A DNA stretch of 64,000 bases from Bacteroidota bacterium (GTDB lineage: Bacteria > Bacteroidota > Bacteroidia > Sphingobacteriales > Sphingobacteriaceae): the NCBI GenBank assembly GCA_013286235.1, contig JABDGE010000003.1, forward strand, positions 1 through 64,000, read 5' to 3'. Under the pieces are notes generated by a model. It had not been told where the DNA came from. It saw nothing but the letters and a program-made list of their open reading frames with translations, and made no database searches. Positions within the stretch are counted from its first letter, which is position 1. Every line of letters begins with the position of its first letter. The translations under genes and the position numbers were made by a program. Positions 32,262-39,177 of the stretch are shown in pieces.

Positions 32262-32784
32262 TCAATGCCTGGTGAACAGGCCCGGCGCGACAAAATCACC
32301 CTCCGGCCAATCCGGTTTCTTCATGTCCGCAATGATGCCGGCAACTTTGGCTTTCCGCGTGTCATTGTAAATGATCATCCTACCCATCAATTCGCTGTAG
32401 GGAACCGGTCCGAAATACCTGCTGGCCTGGCGCTCCGTTAGTACCACGTTGCCCTTACTCGCTAAGGAATCTGGATTGCCAGCCAGCCAACGGCAGGGAA
32501 ATATTTTAAAAAGGCCGGGGCTTAACACCAACACATTTGGCGGGTATTTCGCGGGTTCCGGTTTTTTTAAACTGTAAGCGGGAACCCGCCAGGCCGGGAA
32601 TGGTGACTTTCGCATAATAGGTTTCAGTCAAAATATGGTCGGCCGGTCTTGACAGAAAGTGCATCTGCTGGTCTTTTTTATACCAAACTATAAAAAATAT
32701 GAACAGGCAAATGACCAGGCAGATGTATATGGCTATGGCAAGTTTCGCGGTTCTCATCGGCTTTTTAGTATTTATTTTGGTCAA
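32262..32784 (-). pseudogene. Frameshifted and truncated ABC permease fragment (MacB-type periplasmic region)
   Basis: Two overlapping minus-strand frames together resemble the front part of a MacB/FtsX-type permease: 32784-32506 has one membrane segment (AIAIYICLVICLFIFFIVWY) and ends off-frame; 32615-32262 continues with PNVLVLSPGLFKIFPCRWLAG and GNVVLTERQASRYFG...GRMIIYNDTRKAKVAGIIADM, the MacB periplasmic-core pattern. The join is near 32580-32600. The fragment ends after about 150 residues with no FtsX domain. The start overlaps the stop of the S41 peptidase gene upstream by 20 bases. Confidence 0.7.
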
Positions 32785-34228
32785 TAAGTTTCAGTGTATA
32801 GTTCAGCGTTTTGTCTTCGGTTCCCAGGCCGTCATCTTTAAAGGGGTAATCCGGCACTACACCCGTTGTGGCTGTGCTGCCATTCGGACGGACCATGTAA
32901 GCTTTAGGGTAAGACACAATAAAATGGGTGTGCGGCAGCGTAAATTCATGCTCTGCGGCGTATAAGGTCGGACAATCCGCTGTAGTCTCGCCGACGATCT
33001 TCCCGAAATGGTCATCCTGTATCATGGCCGGCGTGGTGGTTGCATTAGAGTAGCTGTGCCGGTTGGTCAGGACATAAACGTGGCCGGTGAATTTCAGCGA
33101 ATCTGTCCTTGGCGGATAGCTTGGCAGAGGGGTATCAAAGACATCCCCATCCTTGTGCGACAGAATTGCCGCGCGGATTTCCTTCACGGTCGTGTCGGTC
33201 ACTCCCACCCAGAATTTCTTGGTCAGCTCACTGGTTTTTACACTGAAGCGCGAGCAGAACCAAAACGGTTTGGTGGCAAAATAAGCCACCATAGGGTCAC
33301 TAAAAGAGTCATCGCCGCCGGGGTTGCCGCGCAGGTCGATGATCACATTTTGGATATGGTGCAGGTGTACCTGGAGGAAAGCCGAATCCAGCAACCGCAG
33401 GAACTCGCCTTTTTCAAAGGTCTTATGGTCGGAGGTGCCGCCACCGCCATCCATGTTCAGGAAGATACCCGGACGATAATAGGCGGTACGCTTATCCAGA
33501 AGGCGGAATGCGCGGTCGAATTGCAGGGCATTGTAAATGCCTTTGTCCACTTTATCGAATTGCACTGCCGTGATCGCACTCACATTAAGCACTATTTTGA
33601 TAGCAGTACCCGCTTTCTGGATCTTTAGCCTGAAGTTATCCTGACGCCCGAAAGCCTGCCAGAGCGATCTTGGGAAACCGCCTATATCTACGGATGTGCT
33701 TTTGAAATAGTCGTTCTCCCCAGCAACGAGGGGGTAGATACCTTTGAGGTAATAGCTGAACGGCTTGCCATTGATGGCAAGAATTTCGTCACCCAGCTCA
33801 AGGGTACTGTTCCCGCTGTAATTGGCTTTTATAAAACCATGTTCCCCTTCGATCCGGACCCCCAAAGGGAACAATGTGCCGCCGCCGGCCTTGTACAGGT
33901 TATAGGCATCGGAGAACGCGCCCTGTACGGACAGGTGCCCCAGCCCGGCCAGTACCGTAAAACGCTGGAAAAGGCTGGCCGTTTCCATTTCGGTCAGGGA
34001 GTCTTTACGTTCGCTGAGCTCATTTTTGATCCGGTGGTATTCGGCATCATAGACGCTTTTTGGCGTCGTTACATACAGGTTATAAGTGGAGACTTGCAAC
34101 GTCTGGTAACAAGTATCCAGGTCGGCGCTGACATCGGCAGGCGCGAATTTTGGTGATTCCTGTGCGAGAACACGGAGCGTGCCCATGGCAACAAAGCTTA
34201 AGGTTAGTAATACGATCTGTCTTTTCAT
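32765..34228 (-). CDS. S41-family peptidase (C-terminal processing protease-like), secreted
   Basis: 487 residues with a signal peptide (MKRQIVLLTLSFVAMGTLRVLA). A helical lead and a PDZ-like stretch (about 125-165, GVRIEGEHGFIKANYSGNSTLELGDEILAINGKP) precede the catalytic region, with NVIIDLRGNPGGDDSF and the Ser-containing HVYVLTNRHSYSNATTTPAMIQDD. The S41 fold normally uses Ser and Lys; the Ser is in HSYSNA. It would act in the periplasm or outer membrane. It follows the large regulator-permease fusion on the same strand (212-base gap). Confidence 0.85.
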   Translation of the reverse strand: MKRQIVLLTLSFVAMGTLRVLAQESPKFAPADVSADLDTCYQTLQVSTYNLYVTTPKSVYDAEYHRIKNELSERKDSLTEMETASLFQRFTVLAGLGHLSVQGAFSDAYNLYKAGGGTLFPLGVRIEGEHGFIKANYSGNSTLELGDEILAINGKPFSYYLKGIYPLVAGENDYFKSTSVDIGGFPRSLWQAFGRQDNFRLKIQKAGTAIKIVLNVSAITAVQFDKVDKGIYNALQFDRAFRLLDKRTAYYRPGIFLNMDGGGGTSDHKTFEKGEFLRLLDSAFLQVHLHHIQNVIIDLRGNPGGDDSFSDPMVAYFATKPFWFCSRFSVKTSELTKKFWVGVTDTTVKEIRAAILSHKDGDVFDTPLPSYPPRTDSLKFTGHVYVLTNRHSYSNATTTPAMIQDDHFGKIVGETTADCPTLYAAEHEFTLPHTHFIVSYPKAYMVRPNGSTATTGVVPDYPFKDDGLGTEDKTLNYTLKLIDQNKY

Positions 34229-34440
34229 TTTTATGGATTTAATTTTTTATACTTTAAAGTTTTCTGAGATAAATTTTCCCTAATTCGGAAGTGAATAGAT
34301 AAGCAAGGTTAAAATCATTATAAAGCTAACGTTATTCTGTCTTCTGTCTTTTTTTAAAATGGTTAAAGTGAAACGGAACAAGGCGTCTCAATATTCGAAA
34401 TAAGGTGGTCGGCGGCTACGTAATTTCCGGCTCAGTCAGC

Positions 34441-37400
34441 CTATTCGCTCCTCAAGCTCTTCACCGGGTTCGCCAAGGCTGCTTTGATGGACTGAAAGCT
34501 AATGGTTATAAAGGCAATAGCAATTGCCCCCAAACTTGCAGCTATCACTAACCACCACTGAATATTTTGATGATAAGCAAAACCTTCGAGCCATTGGTGC
34601 ATGAAATACCAGGCTGCGGGAACTGCCACAACAATGGCAATAAGTACCAACAGAATAAAGTCTTTTGATAGCATACCCACGATAGTTGAAACATTAGCTC
34701 CCAACACTTTGCGTATTCCTATTTCTTTGGTGCGCTGCTCGGCTGCGTATGCTGACAGGCCGAACAAACCAAGGCAGGCAATGATAATAGCAAGTGAAGT
34801 GAACGACGCAGCTATTTCCCCGGTATGCTGTTCCGAACGATATAATTTATCGAATTCATCATCCATGAAATTGTAGTTGAACTGTTGATTTGGCGATAAT
34901 TCGGTCCATTTAGCTTTTACCTGTTCAACAATGGCACTAACGTCGGTCGATCTCACCCTGATAGCCATAGCGTTAACGCCTCCCCCGGTATTAAATAAGA
35001 TCAGCGGGGTCACATTTTCACGAAGCGATTTAAAGTTAAAATCCTTCATCACGCCGATAATGTGGAAGGGCTTCATTACCTTAGCCATTTTATCCTGCGG
35101 CGCATACATCATCTGGTTTAGCGGATTATCGAAACCTATTCGTTTAGCCGCAGTCTCATTGACGATGATCGCTGTAGAATCTGTAGCCATCTGTTTGGAA
35201 AAATTTCTTCCGGCAGCCATTTTTATGCCAAGTGCAGGTATATAATCTTCATCCACATCCCATAGCTGACTCGCTGTTGCCTGTTTCTGATCAATTACCG
35301 GGCTTTTGTATAAAGACATACTGCTACTTATATCTGATGTTGGCAGGTAGTCCGACATAGCAACATTTTGTATCCCGGCAAGTTGTTGTACTTCGTGTTT
35401 AAAGGCTTTAGCTTTATTGCCTGGCAGTGTCCCTGTATCCCACACGATCAACACATGTTCCCGGTTATAACCCACGTCTTTATGCTGAATGTATTCGAGT
35501 TGATGGTACATGACAAGGGTCCCAATGATCAGGCCGATGGAAATAATAAACTGCCCCACAACCAGCACATTGCGTAGCAGACCACCCTTGAAACCGGCTG
35601 CAAGTTTTCCTTTGAGCACTTCAATAGGCTGAAAGCTGGAAAGATATATCGCTGGGTATGATCCGGCCAGGCAGCCTACCACTATAATGAAGACGATCAT
35701 AACCGGAAACAACCAGCCAATGATCTGCGGAGTAATTAACAATTGCTTACCGGAAAGCCCGTTGAACAGAGGTAACAATGCCCAGGCAGCAAATACTGCA
35801 ATAATAGCACCGATCAGCGTTACGATAATCGATTCCGTCAGGAACTGAGCAATAAGGTTTTTGCGTGTTGATCCTAACACTTTGCGAACACCCACTTCTT
35901 TTGCCCGGTTAGATGATCTTGCTGTAGATAAATTCATAAAGTTTACACAGGCGATAAGCAAGATAAGTACAGCGATCACAGCAAAAATGTAGACGGTCTG
36001 TAAATTGCCGTTTGCATCCAATTCGCCCAAAGCATTGGATTGAAGGTGTATTTTCAATAGCGGGAAAAGCTTAAGTCTGTAAATGTTCCCACCCTGCTCC
36101 ATTTGAGCGAAGGATAGGTGCAATATGCTCTGAATATCCGGCCCAGAGTGTTTTTCCAGGAATGCCGGAAGCTTCGCCTGCAGTTTTTGGGGATCGACGC
36201 CGGGCCTTAATAAGATATAAGTATTGAAACTACCGCTGAACCAGGCATTCTCCTTGCTGTCCTGCAGGGTTGACATCGATATAAAAAAGTCGAAATTAAA
36301 ATGTGACTGCTCACGCACGTCTTTGATGACGCCGGTTACCTTGTAAAGCGCGGTGTCATTAAAAGTAAATACTTTACCTACCGCATTATCGGTATCAAAA
36401 TATTTCTTTGCAGTGCTTTCGGTAATCACAACCGTATGTGGTTCCTTTAATGCGGTTTTAGGGTCACCGTTTATCATGGGCAGGGTAAATACATCAAACA
36501 AGGCTGGGTCGGCATAAACCATCTTGTTCTCCTGTATATTCCCGGTGCCCTTCCTGACTTTGGCGCCTCCCTGGCTGCAGAGCCTTGCTACCTGCTCAAT
36601 TTCGGGAAAGTCCGCTTTTAATGCCGGAGCAAGGGGCGCCGCAGACACGGCCCACAGATTCTCAGCCCCCCCAAACCTGAAGTCAATGTTTACTCGATAT
36701 ATACGATCGGCCTTTTCATTATACCTGTCATAACTCAACTCGTCGAAAACATAAAAAACAATAAGCAGGCAGGTGGCCAGGCCCAGCGCTAGCCCCAGCA
36801 CATTGATAGCTGTAAAGCCTTTGTTCTTCAAAAGATTGCGGAATGCGGTCTTGATGTAGTTTTTAACCATTGTTGCACGTTTTAAATCTGTAAGAGTGGT
36901 TCCGTGACACAAAATTACCGCTGTAGGATGGGAATAAGGCTCCAAATAAGGTCTCAAAGTGTATGTTGGGCGCTCTTTTTTCAGGTCGCTCATATATTCG
37001 GCCGGAGGTTTGCCGGTCATTTCACGGAAGACACGGTTAAAGGTGGATTTGGAATTGAATCCGGCCGTCAATGCAATTCCCAGCAATGTTAGCTTGTCAT
37101 ACGCCGGGTCCCGCATTTTCCGGGTCACCTCACGGATGCGGTATTCATTGATAAAATCATTGAAGTTTTTTCTAAATGCCGTATTAATGATCCTGGATAA
37201 TTCATTAGGATACAGGTCCAGCGCTTCAGCCAATGAGCGCAAGCTGAGTTCCGCATCGTGGTAATACAGATTGGCTTTCATTACCTCCTTCAGCCAGAGC
37301 CCTTTTCGTTTTAGTTCCGCTGGCGGCAGTGGCCTGGAAACAAAAGGAATACGGAGAGGCGCCCCAACATCTGGCCTTAAATGGGCGGCGGCGGCTATCC

Positions 37401-38100
37401 AGATAAAAAAGGCTGATAAAAGGAGATACCAGGACTCGTAAATCTGGATGCCTAACCGGCCATGGTAATAAAAATAGTCAACTCCAGTATATGGGATCCA
37501 CAATAGCCACAAGATACCGAAACTCGTTAGTAAACGATGCAACCACCGTAATTCGCACCGGTATCGGTCACCCCCCTCATTAAATTTCAGCCGTTGATAA
37601 AACCGTTCTATCAGTCTATGAGACGCGTATAAGTAGATGCTAACGGAAATGAACACTAGCAATTGCAGCACCGGGTTTAACTGCCGAAATATAAAGGTAC
37701 CATACGTAGCTACGCCCTTCTCTATGCTCTCTTTAACCTCCAAAACTAAGGCGCCTTGTTGCAGCAAAAGCGGGCTGAAATGAAGCAGATCCTTAAAACG
37801 AAATTTATATTCTGGCAGGGTTATTTTGAGCACATAAAAAAAAATTATCGGGCCCAATACAAGCAAAAATTGGATCGGCAGCCAGCTCCAATGAGGGAAA
37901 TATGTTCCAAGCCGGACGTCGATGCCCAACACCCAAACCATCTGCAAAACGATGGTGATCAGGGCTAGTGCAAGGAACCGGTTTGCGGTCTGGTTAATTC
38001 TTTTTGCGAATCCTAAAAGTAGAGCAAACATCAGCCCAATAAATATCGTTCCCAGGAGGACCAAGTCATACAGGTTGATATGGAATGTATATGGGTTCAA
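34441..38100 (-). CDS. Fusion: 7TM AraC-type regulator plus MacB/FtsX-type ABC permease
   Basis: 1219 residues in one frame starting at a TTG (38098-38100); an in-frame stop lies a few codons upstream and no ATG is available. Residues about 1-245 form seven membrane segments; about 270-375 is an AraC-type HTH domain (LSLRSLAEALDLYPNELSRIINTAFRKNF, LLGIALTAGFNSKSTFNRVFREMTG). After a 35-residue linker, Met411 (ATG at 36868-36870) opens a complete 809-residue permease (MVKNYIKTAFRNLLKNKGFTAINVLGLALG...) with a periplasmic MacB core and two FtsX domains (CVNFMNLSTARSSNRAKEVGVRKVLG; LFGLSAYAAEQRTKEIGIRKVLG). Each half is full-length, so either two genes fused by stop loss or a genuine membrane-sensing regulator-transporter. 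Confidence 0.9.
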   Translation of the reverse strand: MNPYTFHINLYDLVLLGTIFIGLMFALLLGFAKRINQTANRFLALALITIVLQMVWVLGIDVRLGTYFPHWSWLPIQFLLVLGPIIFFYVLKITLPEYKFRFKDLLHFSPLLLQQGALVLEVKESIEKGVATYGTFIFRQLNPVLQLLVFISVSIYLYASHRLIERFYQRLKFNEGGDRYRCELRWLHRLLTSFGILWLLWIPYTGVDYFYYHGRLGIQIYESWYLLLSAFFIWIAAAAHLRPDVGAPLRIPFVSRPLPPAELKRKGLWLKEVMKANLYYHDAELSLRSLAEALDLYPNELSRIINTAFRKNFNDFINEYRIREVTRKMRDPAYDKLTLLGIALTAGFNSKSTFNRVFREMTGKPPAEYMSDLKKERPTYTLRPYLEPYSHPTAVILCHGTTLTDLKRATMVKNYIKTAFRNLLKNKGFTAINVLGLALGLATCLLIVFYVFDELSYDRYNEKADRIYRVNIDFRFGGAENLWAVSAAPLAPALKADFPEIEQVARLCSQGGAKVRKGTGNIQENKMVYADPALFDVFTLPMINGDPKTALKEPHTVVITESTAKKYFDTDNAVGKVFTFNDTALYKVTGVIKDVREQSHFNFDFFISMSTLQDSKENAWFSGSFNTYILLRPGVDPQKLQAKLPAFLEKHSGPDIQSILHLSFAQMEQGGNIYRLKLFPLLKIHLQSNALGELDANGNLQTVYIFAVIAVLILLIACVNFMNLSTARSSNRAKEVGVRKVLGSTRKNLIAQFLTESIIVTLIGAIIAVFAAWALLPLFNGLSGKQLLITPQIIGWLFPVMIVFIIVVGCLAGSYPAIYLSSFQPIEVLKGKLAAGFKGGLLRNVLVVGQFIISIGLIIGTLVMYHQLEYIQHKDVGYNREHVLIVWDTGTLPGNKAKAFKHEVQQLAGIQNVAMSDYLPTSDISSSMSLYKSPVIDQKQATASQLWDVDEDYIPALGIKMAAGRNFSKQMATDSTAIIVNETAAKRIGFDNPLNQMMYAPQDKMAKVMKPFHIIGVMKDFNFKSLRENVTPLILFNTGGGVNAMAIRVRSTDVSAIVEQVKAKWTELSPNQQFNYNFMDDEFDKLYRSEQHTGEIAASFTSLAIIIACLGLFGLSAYAAEQRTKEIGIRKVLGANVSTIVGMLSKDFILLVLIAIVVAVPAAWYFMHQWLEGFAYHQNIQWWLVIAASLGAIAIAFITISFQSIKAALANPVKSLRSE

Positions 38101-38268
38101 GCAAAATAGAGCCTCAATCGCTGTTCCAAATTGCTAACATATTGACAGGTAGAAGATTATGCTATATTTTGGATAGCTATTGTAACAAAACCGGACAGGC
38201 GGTCGTTCGGTTTTGAATTGTGAAACATTGCATTATCGCATCAACTGCAGACACTTGACCGGCGAGGT

Positions 38269-39177
38269 TTAGTCATTAATGCCGAAACCGCTGATCTTGT
38301 TTTGGGAATCGAATTGTATGATCAGGTCTATATAGTCGTACCCGTAATCCAAACGGTAGCGATAGGTTCGTCTGCCGTTCTTTTCGCGCCGCTCAATCAG
38401 CTTTATGGAATAAATCTTGCCTCTAATCGGGTCAGCTAATCCCTGCGCTTGATCTTTCTTATAAAGCTTAGCAAGTTCCCCGGATAATGTGCTGGTGTCG
38501 ATAGAAGAATGCTGCTGTAGTCCATTAATGAAGTTTTTTACCCTGGCTGTGATTCCTGGTTCTTTATCAGGAAGGGCCTTTGCGGGTAAGGGCTTTAATG
38601 CAGGCATAAAGAATCCGGCAATGTTTTGCGCCATGCGTTCTACATTAACGCTGCCAACATTGGTTAGCACGATTACCGTAAGTTTATCGTCAGGGAACCG
38701 TTCAAAATCCGATCTGAACCCTGGAACGAAGCCGCTATGATGTACATGCAGATGATTATTAACCGAATCGATAAACCAGCCAAAGCCGTAGTGGGTGTTT
38801 TTACCATCATTCAATTTCATAGCCGTCCACATTTGTTTTTTACTGACGGTTGTTAAAAGTTTGTCGTTATAGAGTATCCCATCCCATTTTGTCAGATTAG
38901 TTATACTGGAAAGAAAAGCCCCGCTTGGCCGCAGTGCAAGCCATATCTGTGCGTTTTCCCAGCCTGCACTTTTTCTTTCATAACCACCTGCACGGTTTGG
39001 GACCAGATCAGTCATACTGCATGTAAGGGTTTGGCTCATGCCGGCAGGATCAAAAATATGCTTGCTGATCCACCCGGCCCAGTTTGTGCCGGTAACTTTC
39101 CCAATTATTGCTGCAAGTACATAATAGTTCATGTTGCTGTATTCCCATTGCGTGACTGGGGTGAAATCGAGCGGCAA
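38269..39177 (-). pseudogene. 5'-truncated serine hydrolase (class C beta-lactamase fold)
   Basis: 302 residues. The second half of a beta-lactamase/D-peptidase-like hydrolase is present: catalytic Tyr motif EYSNMNYYVLAAIIGKVTG, a GFGW...HHSGFVPGF segment (KTG-box region) and a C-terminal domain. The SxxK active-site region, which should lie about 60-80 residues before YSN, is absent. The frame continues in the same sense upstream of 39177 (FFADVDPLKVRPLSEDIKAIYPL) without a start and then meets unrelated DNA. It cannot be catalytically competent as it stands. The break point is 39178-39244, shared with the next fragment. Confidence 0.75.

Follow-up and report, generated by a model that had tools for sequence, protein, structure and literature searches.

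In a 64,000-nucleotide stretch of DNA from a member of the Sphingobacteriaceae (hereinafter the window), a membrane-anchored AraC-type regulator and a MacB/FtsX-type ABC permease are encoded as a single fused gene (34441..38100 on the minus strand; 1219 codons plus a stop, with the TTG start at 38098-38100). The explanation we favor, and consider reasonably probable, is that this gene belongs to a multi-copy family in which a MacB/YbbP-type permease is extended in-frame, ahead of its ATG, by a modular 5' cassette comprising an operator, a promoter, a TTG-started AraC regulator and a linker about 33 residues long. The gene product is best read as a self-regulating, membrane-tethered regulator-permease, and the fused gene probably gives rise to two products, as sequence signals at the junction hint.

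An open-frame scan and the translation revealed no internal stops across 34441-38100, in agreement with a preliminary description of this DNA that had proposed one open frame joining the regulator to the permease. From the N-terminus, the chain comprises a membrane sensor part (37378..38064; residues about 13-241), an AraC-type HTH (36991..37233; residues 290-370), a linker (36871..36975; residues 376-410) and, from the ATG codon of residue 411 (36868..36870), a duplicated permease lacking an ATPase domain (34444..36870; residues 411-1219), all on the minus strand. The HTH_18 model of Pfam matches the second of these with 53.3 bits against a cut-off of 33.6 (3.5e-14), which by the curated threshold makes it an AraC/XylS-type domain, while the HTH_AraC model reaches 22.0 bits, below its own cut-off of 26.6. 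MacB_PCD and FtsX each match the permease in two stretches (best 430-645 with 9e-39 and 708-825 with 2e-27, respectively), and these hits, together with the fold match, identify it as a MacB/FtsX (type VII) ABC permease with both domains duplicated. Foldseek searches with residues 411-1219 recovered YbbAP (9ge7/9ge6) and MacB (5gko) as the top matches and also LolCDE and BceAB. The NCBIfam model TIGR03434 (ADOP) scores 351.8 bits over residues 416-1219 against a cut-off of 622.3, which places the permease near that family but under its threshold.

An AF2 model of residues 21-1219 (mean pLDDT 77.4, pTM 0.58; the first 20 residues were omitted) predicts seven helices in the sensor part at about 22-31, 37-61, 73-94, 102-128, 136-170, 178-199 and 221-241, the first being cut short because of the omitted residues. 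The HTH domain lies at about 261-373 between these helices and the linker, which is itself modelled without confidence (pLDDT blocks of 24-47 over 376-407), while the permease part is mostly well modelled. The model and the Pfam domains uphold the earlier claims that a DNA-binding domain lies between two membrane domains and that a whole regulator is followed by a whole permease starting at its family-typical Met, a residue kept in all 107 full fusions that we collected. As for the proposed 7TM nature of the regulator, the seven helices stand in the AF2 model, whereas a crude count of hydropathy peaks gives 5 for the window copy and between 4 and 7 for 102 relatives; hydropathy, which agrees with the model in part, leaves the helix number unsettled and the 7TM label therefore rests on AF2.

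This architecture is repeated both within the genome and beyond it. The genome of the window, of the Mucilaginibacter group, holds 68 matches to the fused protein, itself included; apart from the protein itself, twelve or thirteen cover both halves or extend across the junction, with 40-54% identity. A 65-residue junction query found 263 matches, spread over 67 of the 120 genus genomes (13 in the genome of the window), with one to 18 fusion copies per carrying genome, and, in a draw of 301 genomes from the family, the junction was present in 35, which represent 5 of the 25 genera (E 1e-40 or better). Neither the genus nor the family set has a stop at the junction among the matches listed. The same domain fusion, which the preliminary description had suggested seeking in related genomes, recurs in them, and homologs in close relatives are not always split, as that description had allowed; fused and split forms coexist. 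In a draw of 296 genomes from the phylum, full cover of the junction was seen only in three genomes, all of the same genus as the window; one near-full match (G287) is a broken copy, and the remaining matches are mainly to the HTH. Named records among 77 loci are from Mucilaginibacter, Parapedobacter and MAGs named just Bacteroidetes; those of Mucilaginibacter include M. gossypii and M. frigoritolerans, both of which have copies, and a contig of M. gossypiicola with L132. This repetition in its own genome and in many others defines a fusion family centered on Mucilaginibacter.

Among plasmids, full junction cover was found in one Spirosoma record (NZ_CP087141.1; L176:8347-11799), in which the permease is split; this broken copy, from outside the family of the window, is absent from the PLSDB gene table. 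Some fused copies within this family are broken as well, as is G287 outside it. A search of viral contigs yielded no match. The set of full fusions comprises long open frames with both halves, with duplicates removed only when identical (107 full); the 36 partial fusions kept out of it comprise 26 that run into the end of their locus and others of which six or more are truncated or broken. Literature searches, with subscription papers and bioRxiv outside their scope, turned up no earlier report of an AraC-FtsX/MacB fusion.

Few ATPases were found near the fused genes that we looked at. The genome of the window has 48 matches to ABC_tran, none of them on the contigs with fused arrays C100, C104 and C136, and a motif scan of 20 fused contexts found ABC-ATPase-like frames in just one, L045, where they are encoded on the opposite strand. 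No Pfam match to a kinase, a response regulator or an ABC ATPase was obtained for ten proteins around the window copy, so the locus does not constitute a Bce-type module. A MacB-type permease fragment (32262-32615, minus strand) lies 3' of the fused gene, with a score of 21.7 bits that is under the Pfam cut-off. Elsewhere in the genome, about a dozen standalone permeases form an array (G000:C1:10-33747) that has one ABC ATPase at its end (C1:34343), a possible shared energizer.

The two halves of the fused genes group differently in trees. The regulators of 102 fused genes lie on one side of a branch with support 99, apart from 21 standalone relatives. The permeases, in contrast, are interspersed: a FastTree phylogeny of 137 rows, which were not hand-picked (102 fused and 35 standalone, the latter being those accompanying the loci rather than a census), has 20 changes of the fused label, 18 of them forced by starred branches, though FastTree warns of long branches; in it the window permease groups with six standalone permeases. 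The label is nonetheless clustered beyond shuffles (20 changes against a mean of 31.2, with 0/500 as low), indicating that transfers were not constant. In a mixture-model tree of 39 permeases, 14 label changes are forced against a shuffled mean of 13.1, a closeness that overstates randomness because the rows were hand-picked to include mixed pairs. Individual swaps run in both directions: the L097 pair, from the same locus, has regulators with 91% amino acid identity and permeases with 33%, whereas in the opposite case of L104/L112 the regulators are 49% and the permeases 90% identical. In the cleanest pairs identity falls within the first 8-10 permease codons, while in others the fall is more gradual. 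We also found one filled/empty site: L101 has the regulator and linker, L165 lacks them, and the two loci share the flanking permeases, of which the upstream one matches as far as the stop codon (77% over 1590 nt) and the downstream one matches with 78%. The L101 cassette has an ATG start and no palindrome.

Trees by themselves cannot separate gain of the cassette from its loss. Six genomes of the genus (G001, G002, G005, G010, G011 and G016) give no junction match and hold standalone permeases 54-64% identical to that of the window, which favors gain, short of proving it. Most likely, as these sequence comparisons suggest, the joined regulator arose once and was later placed by recombination ahead of permeases of many lineages; the cassette would have spread mainly by gain, via crossovers in the first permease codons, which are common to most permeases. 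A second N-terminal prefix of about 110 residues occurs on permeases from the same genus (L173:1672-4455, L174:919-3699 and L175:1438-4164); the one of the three prefixes that was checked (L173) had no Pfam hit, and by eye we take them to resemble a FecR/anti-sigma N-terminal domain. This suggests that further regulatory pieces have also been fused to these permeases.

At its upstream edge, the cassette is marked by a palindrome with the core AACCGnAC-N8-GTnCGGTTT (38188..38213), about 90-113 nt upstream of the TTG, which is a candidate for both the operator and the 5' boundary of the cassette. Conservation upstream of the fused genes sets in at about -120 from the start codon, beginning with the palindrome, and continues through a promoter/leader region (38101..38187, minus strand) that contains the TTTGGAACagcgATTG block; no shared hairpin with good support was found in this upstream region. 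The start codon, counted as the one aligned to the TTG of the window, is TTG in 88 of 95 fused genes, and in 25 of 91 an additional in-frame ATG, GTG or TTG lies farther upstream. The genome of the window has 9 palindrome sites with at most one mismatch (17 strand-matches against 5 for a reversed control), 8 of them directly upstream of fused genes or fragments of fused modules. The sole site not beside a fused gene is at G000:C50:15449-15473. With a looser pattern, the palindrome falls in the -120 bin of 41 of 91 fused genes, the corresponding figures being 1 of 34 for standalone permeases and 91 of 5000 for random stretches; the pattern is hence found in under half of the fusions.

The linker is nearly constant, with 33 residues in 98 of the 107 full fusions, 29 in 7, 32 in one and 37 in one, and its sequence is recognizable across 38 displayed fusions. 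Its conservation is evident at the nucleotide level. At several places third codon positions are more conserved than the amino acids, as at the codon 32 positions before the Met, in which the first two letters vary while the third is nearly always T. Across 102 sequences (5 of the 107 with >90% identity being dropped), the synonymous excess identity is 0.51, 0.35, 0.57 and 0.48 in the linker blocks, as against an average of about 0.25 for residues 1-360; for the permease, in which it drops past residue 420, the value is about 0.09. Two regulator blocks (0.45 and 0.41) approach the linker. In 51 close pairs, pS is 0.38 in the linker versus 0.52-0.54 elsewhere. The linker has a dN/dS of 0.50 versus 0.10-0.18 elsewhere. 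As a protein, then, it is just loosely constrained, which, with its low model confidence, counts against the predicted coupling through the linker.

These properties bear on the preliminary description, which took the linker for former intergenic sequence and stop-codon loss for the simpler origin of the fusion. Stop-codon loss sits poorly with a near-constant linker that is recognizable in more than 100 diverged fusions and with a single regulator clade. Nor does the linker appear to be intergenic DNA copied from standalone permeases, as linker-like DNA was not found upstream of those examined save for one remnant. A linker model gave 39 hits outside the long open frames, 34 of them with E of 0.18 or more; the rest are three at locus edges, the broken copy L063 and the remnant in L151 (E 0.0028). 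In the latter (L151:9100-9230), the first codons of the regulator lead, in the wrong frame, into the last part of the linker, and the permease frame is intact behind the deleted regulator, implying that the permease may work alone.

The nucleotide-level constraint coincides with a potential RNA structure. In analyses of the 93 of the 102 sequences with 33-residue linkers, the window included, RNAalifold predicts a hairpin with a strong covariation term that ends about 5 nt before the ATG. Two segments over it fold tighter than synonymous recodings (z -1.30 and -1.29; se 0.11-0.12, n = 93), against z values of -0.52 to +0.62 in 27 others; the segment over the junction ATG is less structured than expected (z +0.62), and the start region is A-rich. 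In the 23-pair structure 78.1% of cells pair, as against 33-44% when it is slid. By a shuffle control that keeps the kinship among sequences in, the hairpin exceeds all 500 shuffles in cells paired, double changes (74 versus 49.4) and covariation (0.141 versus 0.117), whereas two of the five measures fall within the shuffles (146/500 and 124/500) and the slid controls, with 44-78 double changes, reach the observed 74. When single changes were roughly counted by hand, those of the G-U and A-C kinds proved similar in number, revealing no clear RNA-strand preference. The hairpin of the window copy is damaged, with 12 nt missing from its 3' arm. A search of Rfam over 34000-38700 gave no match. Taken together, the conserved junction ATG, the hairpin and the less structured start region suggest that the permease alone may also be made, from an internal start with RNA-level signals. 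We also considered a candidate internal promoter in the linker: TAATTTCG is present there, with the window copy TAATTTTG being a perfect match to TAnnTTTG, and a conserved TTG sits 25 nt upstream of TAATTTCG. The corresponding spacing in Bacteroidota promoters is shorter than 25 nt.

Some of this evidence could be read differently. The two halves might be functionally separate, with the long chain a by-product, the working permease made from the internal ATG and the frame open because the linker evolved from coding-compatible DNA. The junction Met of 107/107 fusions, the A-rich, less structured start region, the TTG aligned as the start of the long product in 88/95, the weak protein constraint in the linker and the intact L151 permease with no regulator in frame are all in keeping with this. 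Yet a neutral open frame would be expected to be lost often at such divergence, while no junction stops occur among the matches listed and linker lengths keep the frame in 107/107, albeit in a set selected as intact frames; we hold this reading to be rather unlikely. It is more improbable still that the hairpin in the linker and the palindrome upstream of the gene mark the ends of a mobile or recombination unit, with their conservation stemming from DNA mobility and not from gene control. Such a unit would fit the sharp onset of conservation near the palindrome and its end about 10 codons inside the permease, the many permease hosts, the L101/L165 pair and the hairpin changes with no clear strand preference by the rough hand tally; but the crossovers lie within the shared permease start, as expected of homologous recombination, the palindrome is absent from the L101 cassette and the viral contigs had no match.

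A sequencing error, an assembly artefact or a recent stop loss in the window gene alone has a negligible probability: recurrence across many assemblies, named isolates included, refutes it, and the hidden stop envisaged in the preliminary description is belied by the recurrence of the junction in its own genome and in 67 of the 120 genus genomes, with no stop among the matches listed.

Returning to the modular-cassette reading, we advance the following mechanism as the most likely. The full protein would reside in the inner membrane with its HTH in the cytoplasm, where the AraC domain is predicted to bind the palindrome ahead of its own gene as well as those ahead of sister genes. A substrate-related input might come from the attached permease, by analogy with BceB and its kinase. 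Some permease would also be started at the internal ATG, under the control or tuning of the hairpin just upstream. We infer that the protein may act as a transporter-coupled switch, with transporter state controlling transcription directly. A bolder version, which we offer tentatively as possible if doubtful, is that a spreading regulatory prefix makes transporters self-reporting transcription factors: the cassette would have been captured by many permeases and its linker read in three ways, as protein tether, RNA hairpin and internal-start leader, yielding a tethered factor and a free permease in a ratio set by the hairpin.

The fusion recalls several known systems without coinciding with any of them. 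ADOP proteins (TIGR03434) share the duplicated MacB/FtsX permease without an ATPase domain; the fused gene differs in falling under the ADOP cut-off and in having its membrane-anchored AraC-type regulator in the same chain. A Spirosoma plasmid record has a PadR gene beside a 'permease prefix domain 2-containing transporter', whereas here the regulator is in the chain. Solved structures of MacB and YbbP have the fold of residues 411-1219 and no regulator domain. Both have an ATPase, either as a domain or as a partner. Among standalone 7TM AraC-type regulators of Bacteroidota, the fuller matches in other genera are about 26-41% identical over most of the regulator half; these regulators are unfused, with no permease match in the ~1.5 kb flanks of 26 loci. 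Bce modules comprise a separate kinase, response regulator and ATPase. Their BceAB permease has a related fold by the Foldseek match to residues 411-1219, and in BceAB with BceRS the permease informs the regulator (e.g. PMC10314905). Here, by contrast, the DNA-binding domain is within the permease chain and most copies examined have no adjacent ATPase. In the CadC/ToxR type, the regulator and the transporter are separate proteins and the HTH is of a type other than AraC. The shared features are the membrane-tethered DNA-binding domain and the transporter input, as in CadC with LysP. This pairing of a membrane one-component regulator with a transporter is described in PMC12764776.

The question whether transporters can directly influence transcription has mostly been approached in systems of separate proteins, such as Bce and CadC-LysP; in this family the link is covalent. 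Natural shuffling has placed similar regulators on different permeases and has left similar permeases with and without the regulator, so that the family offers a ready collection in which to ask whether the signal is set by the regulator half or by the permease half. The fusions may also bear on why these genomes are so rich in permeases that lack their own ATPase.
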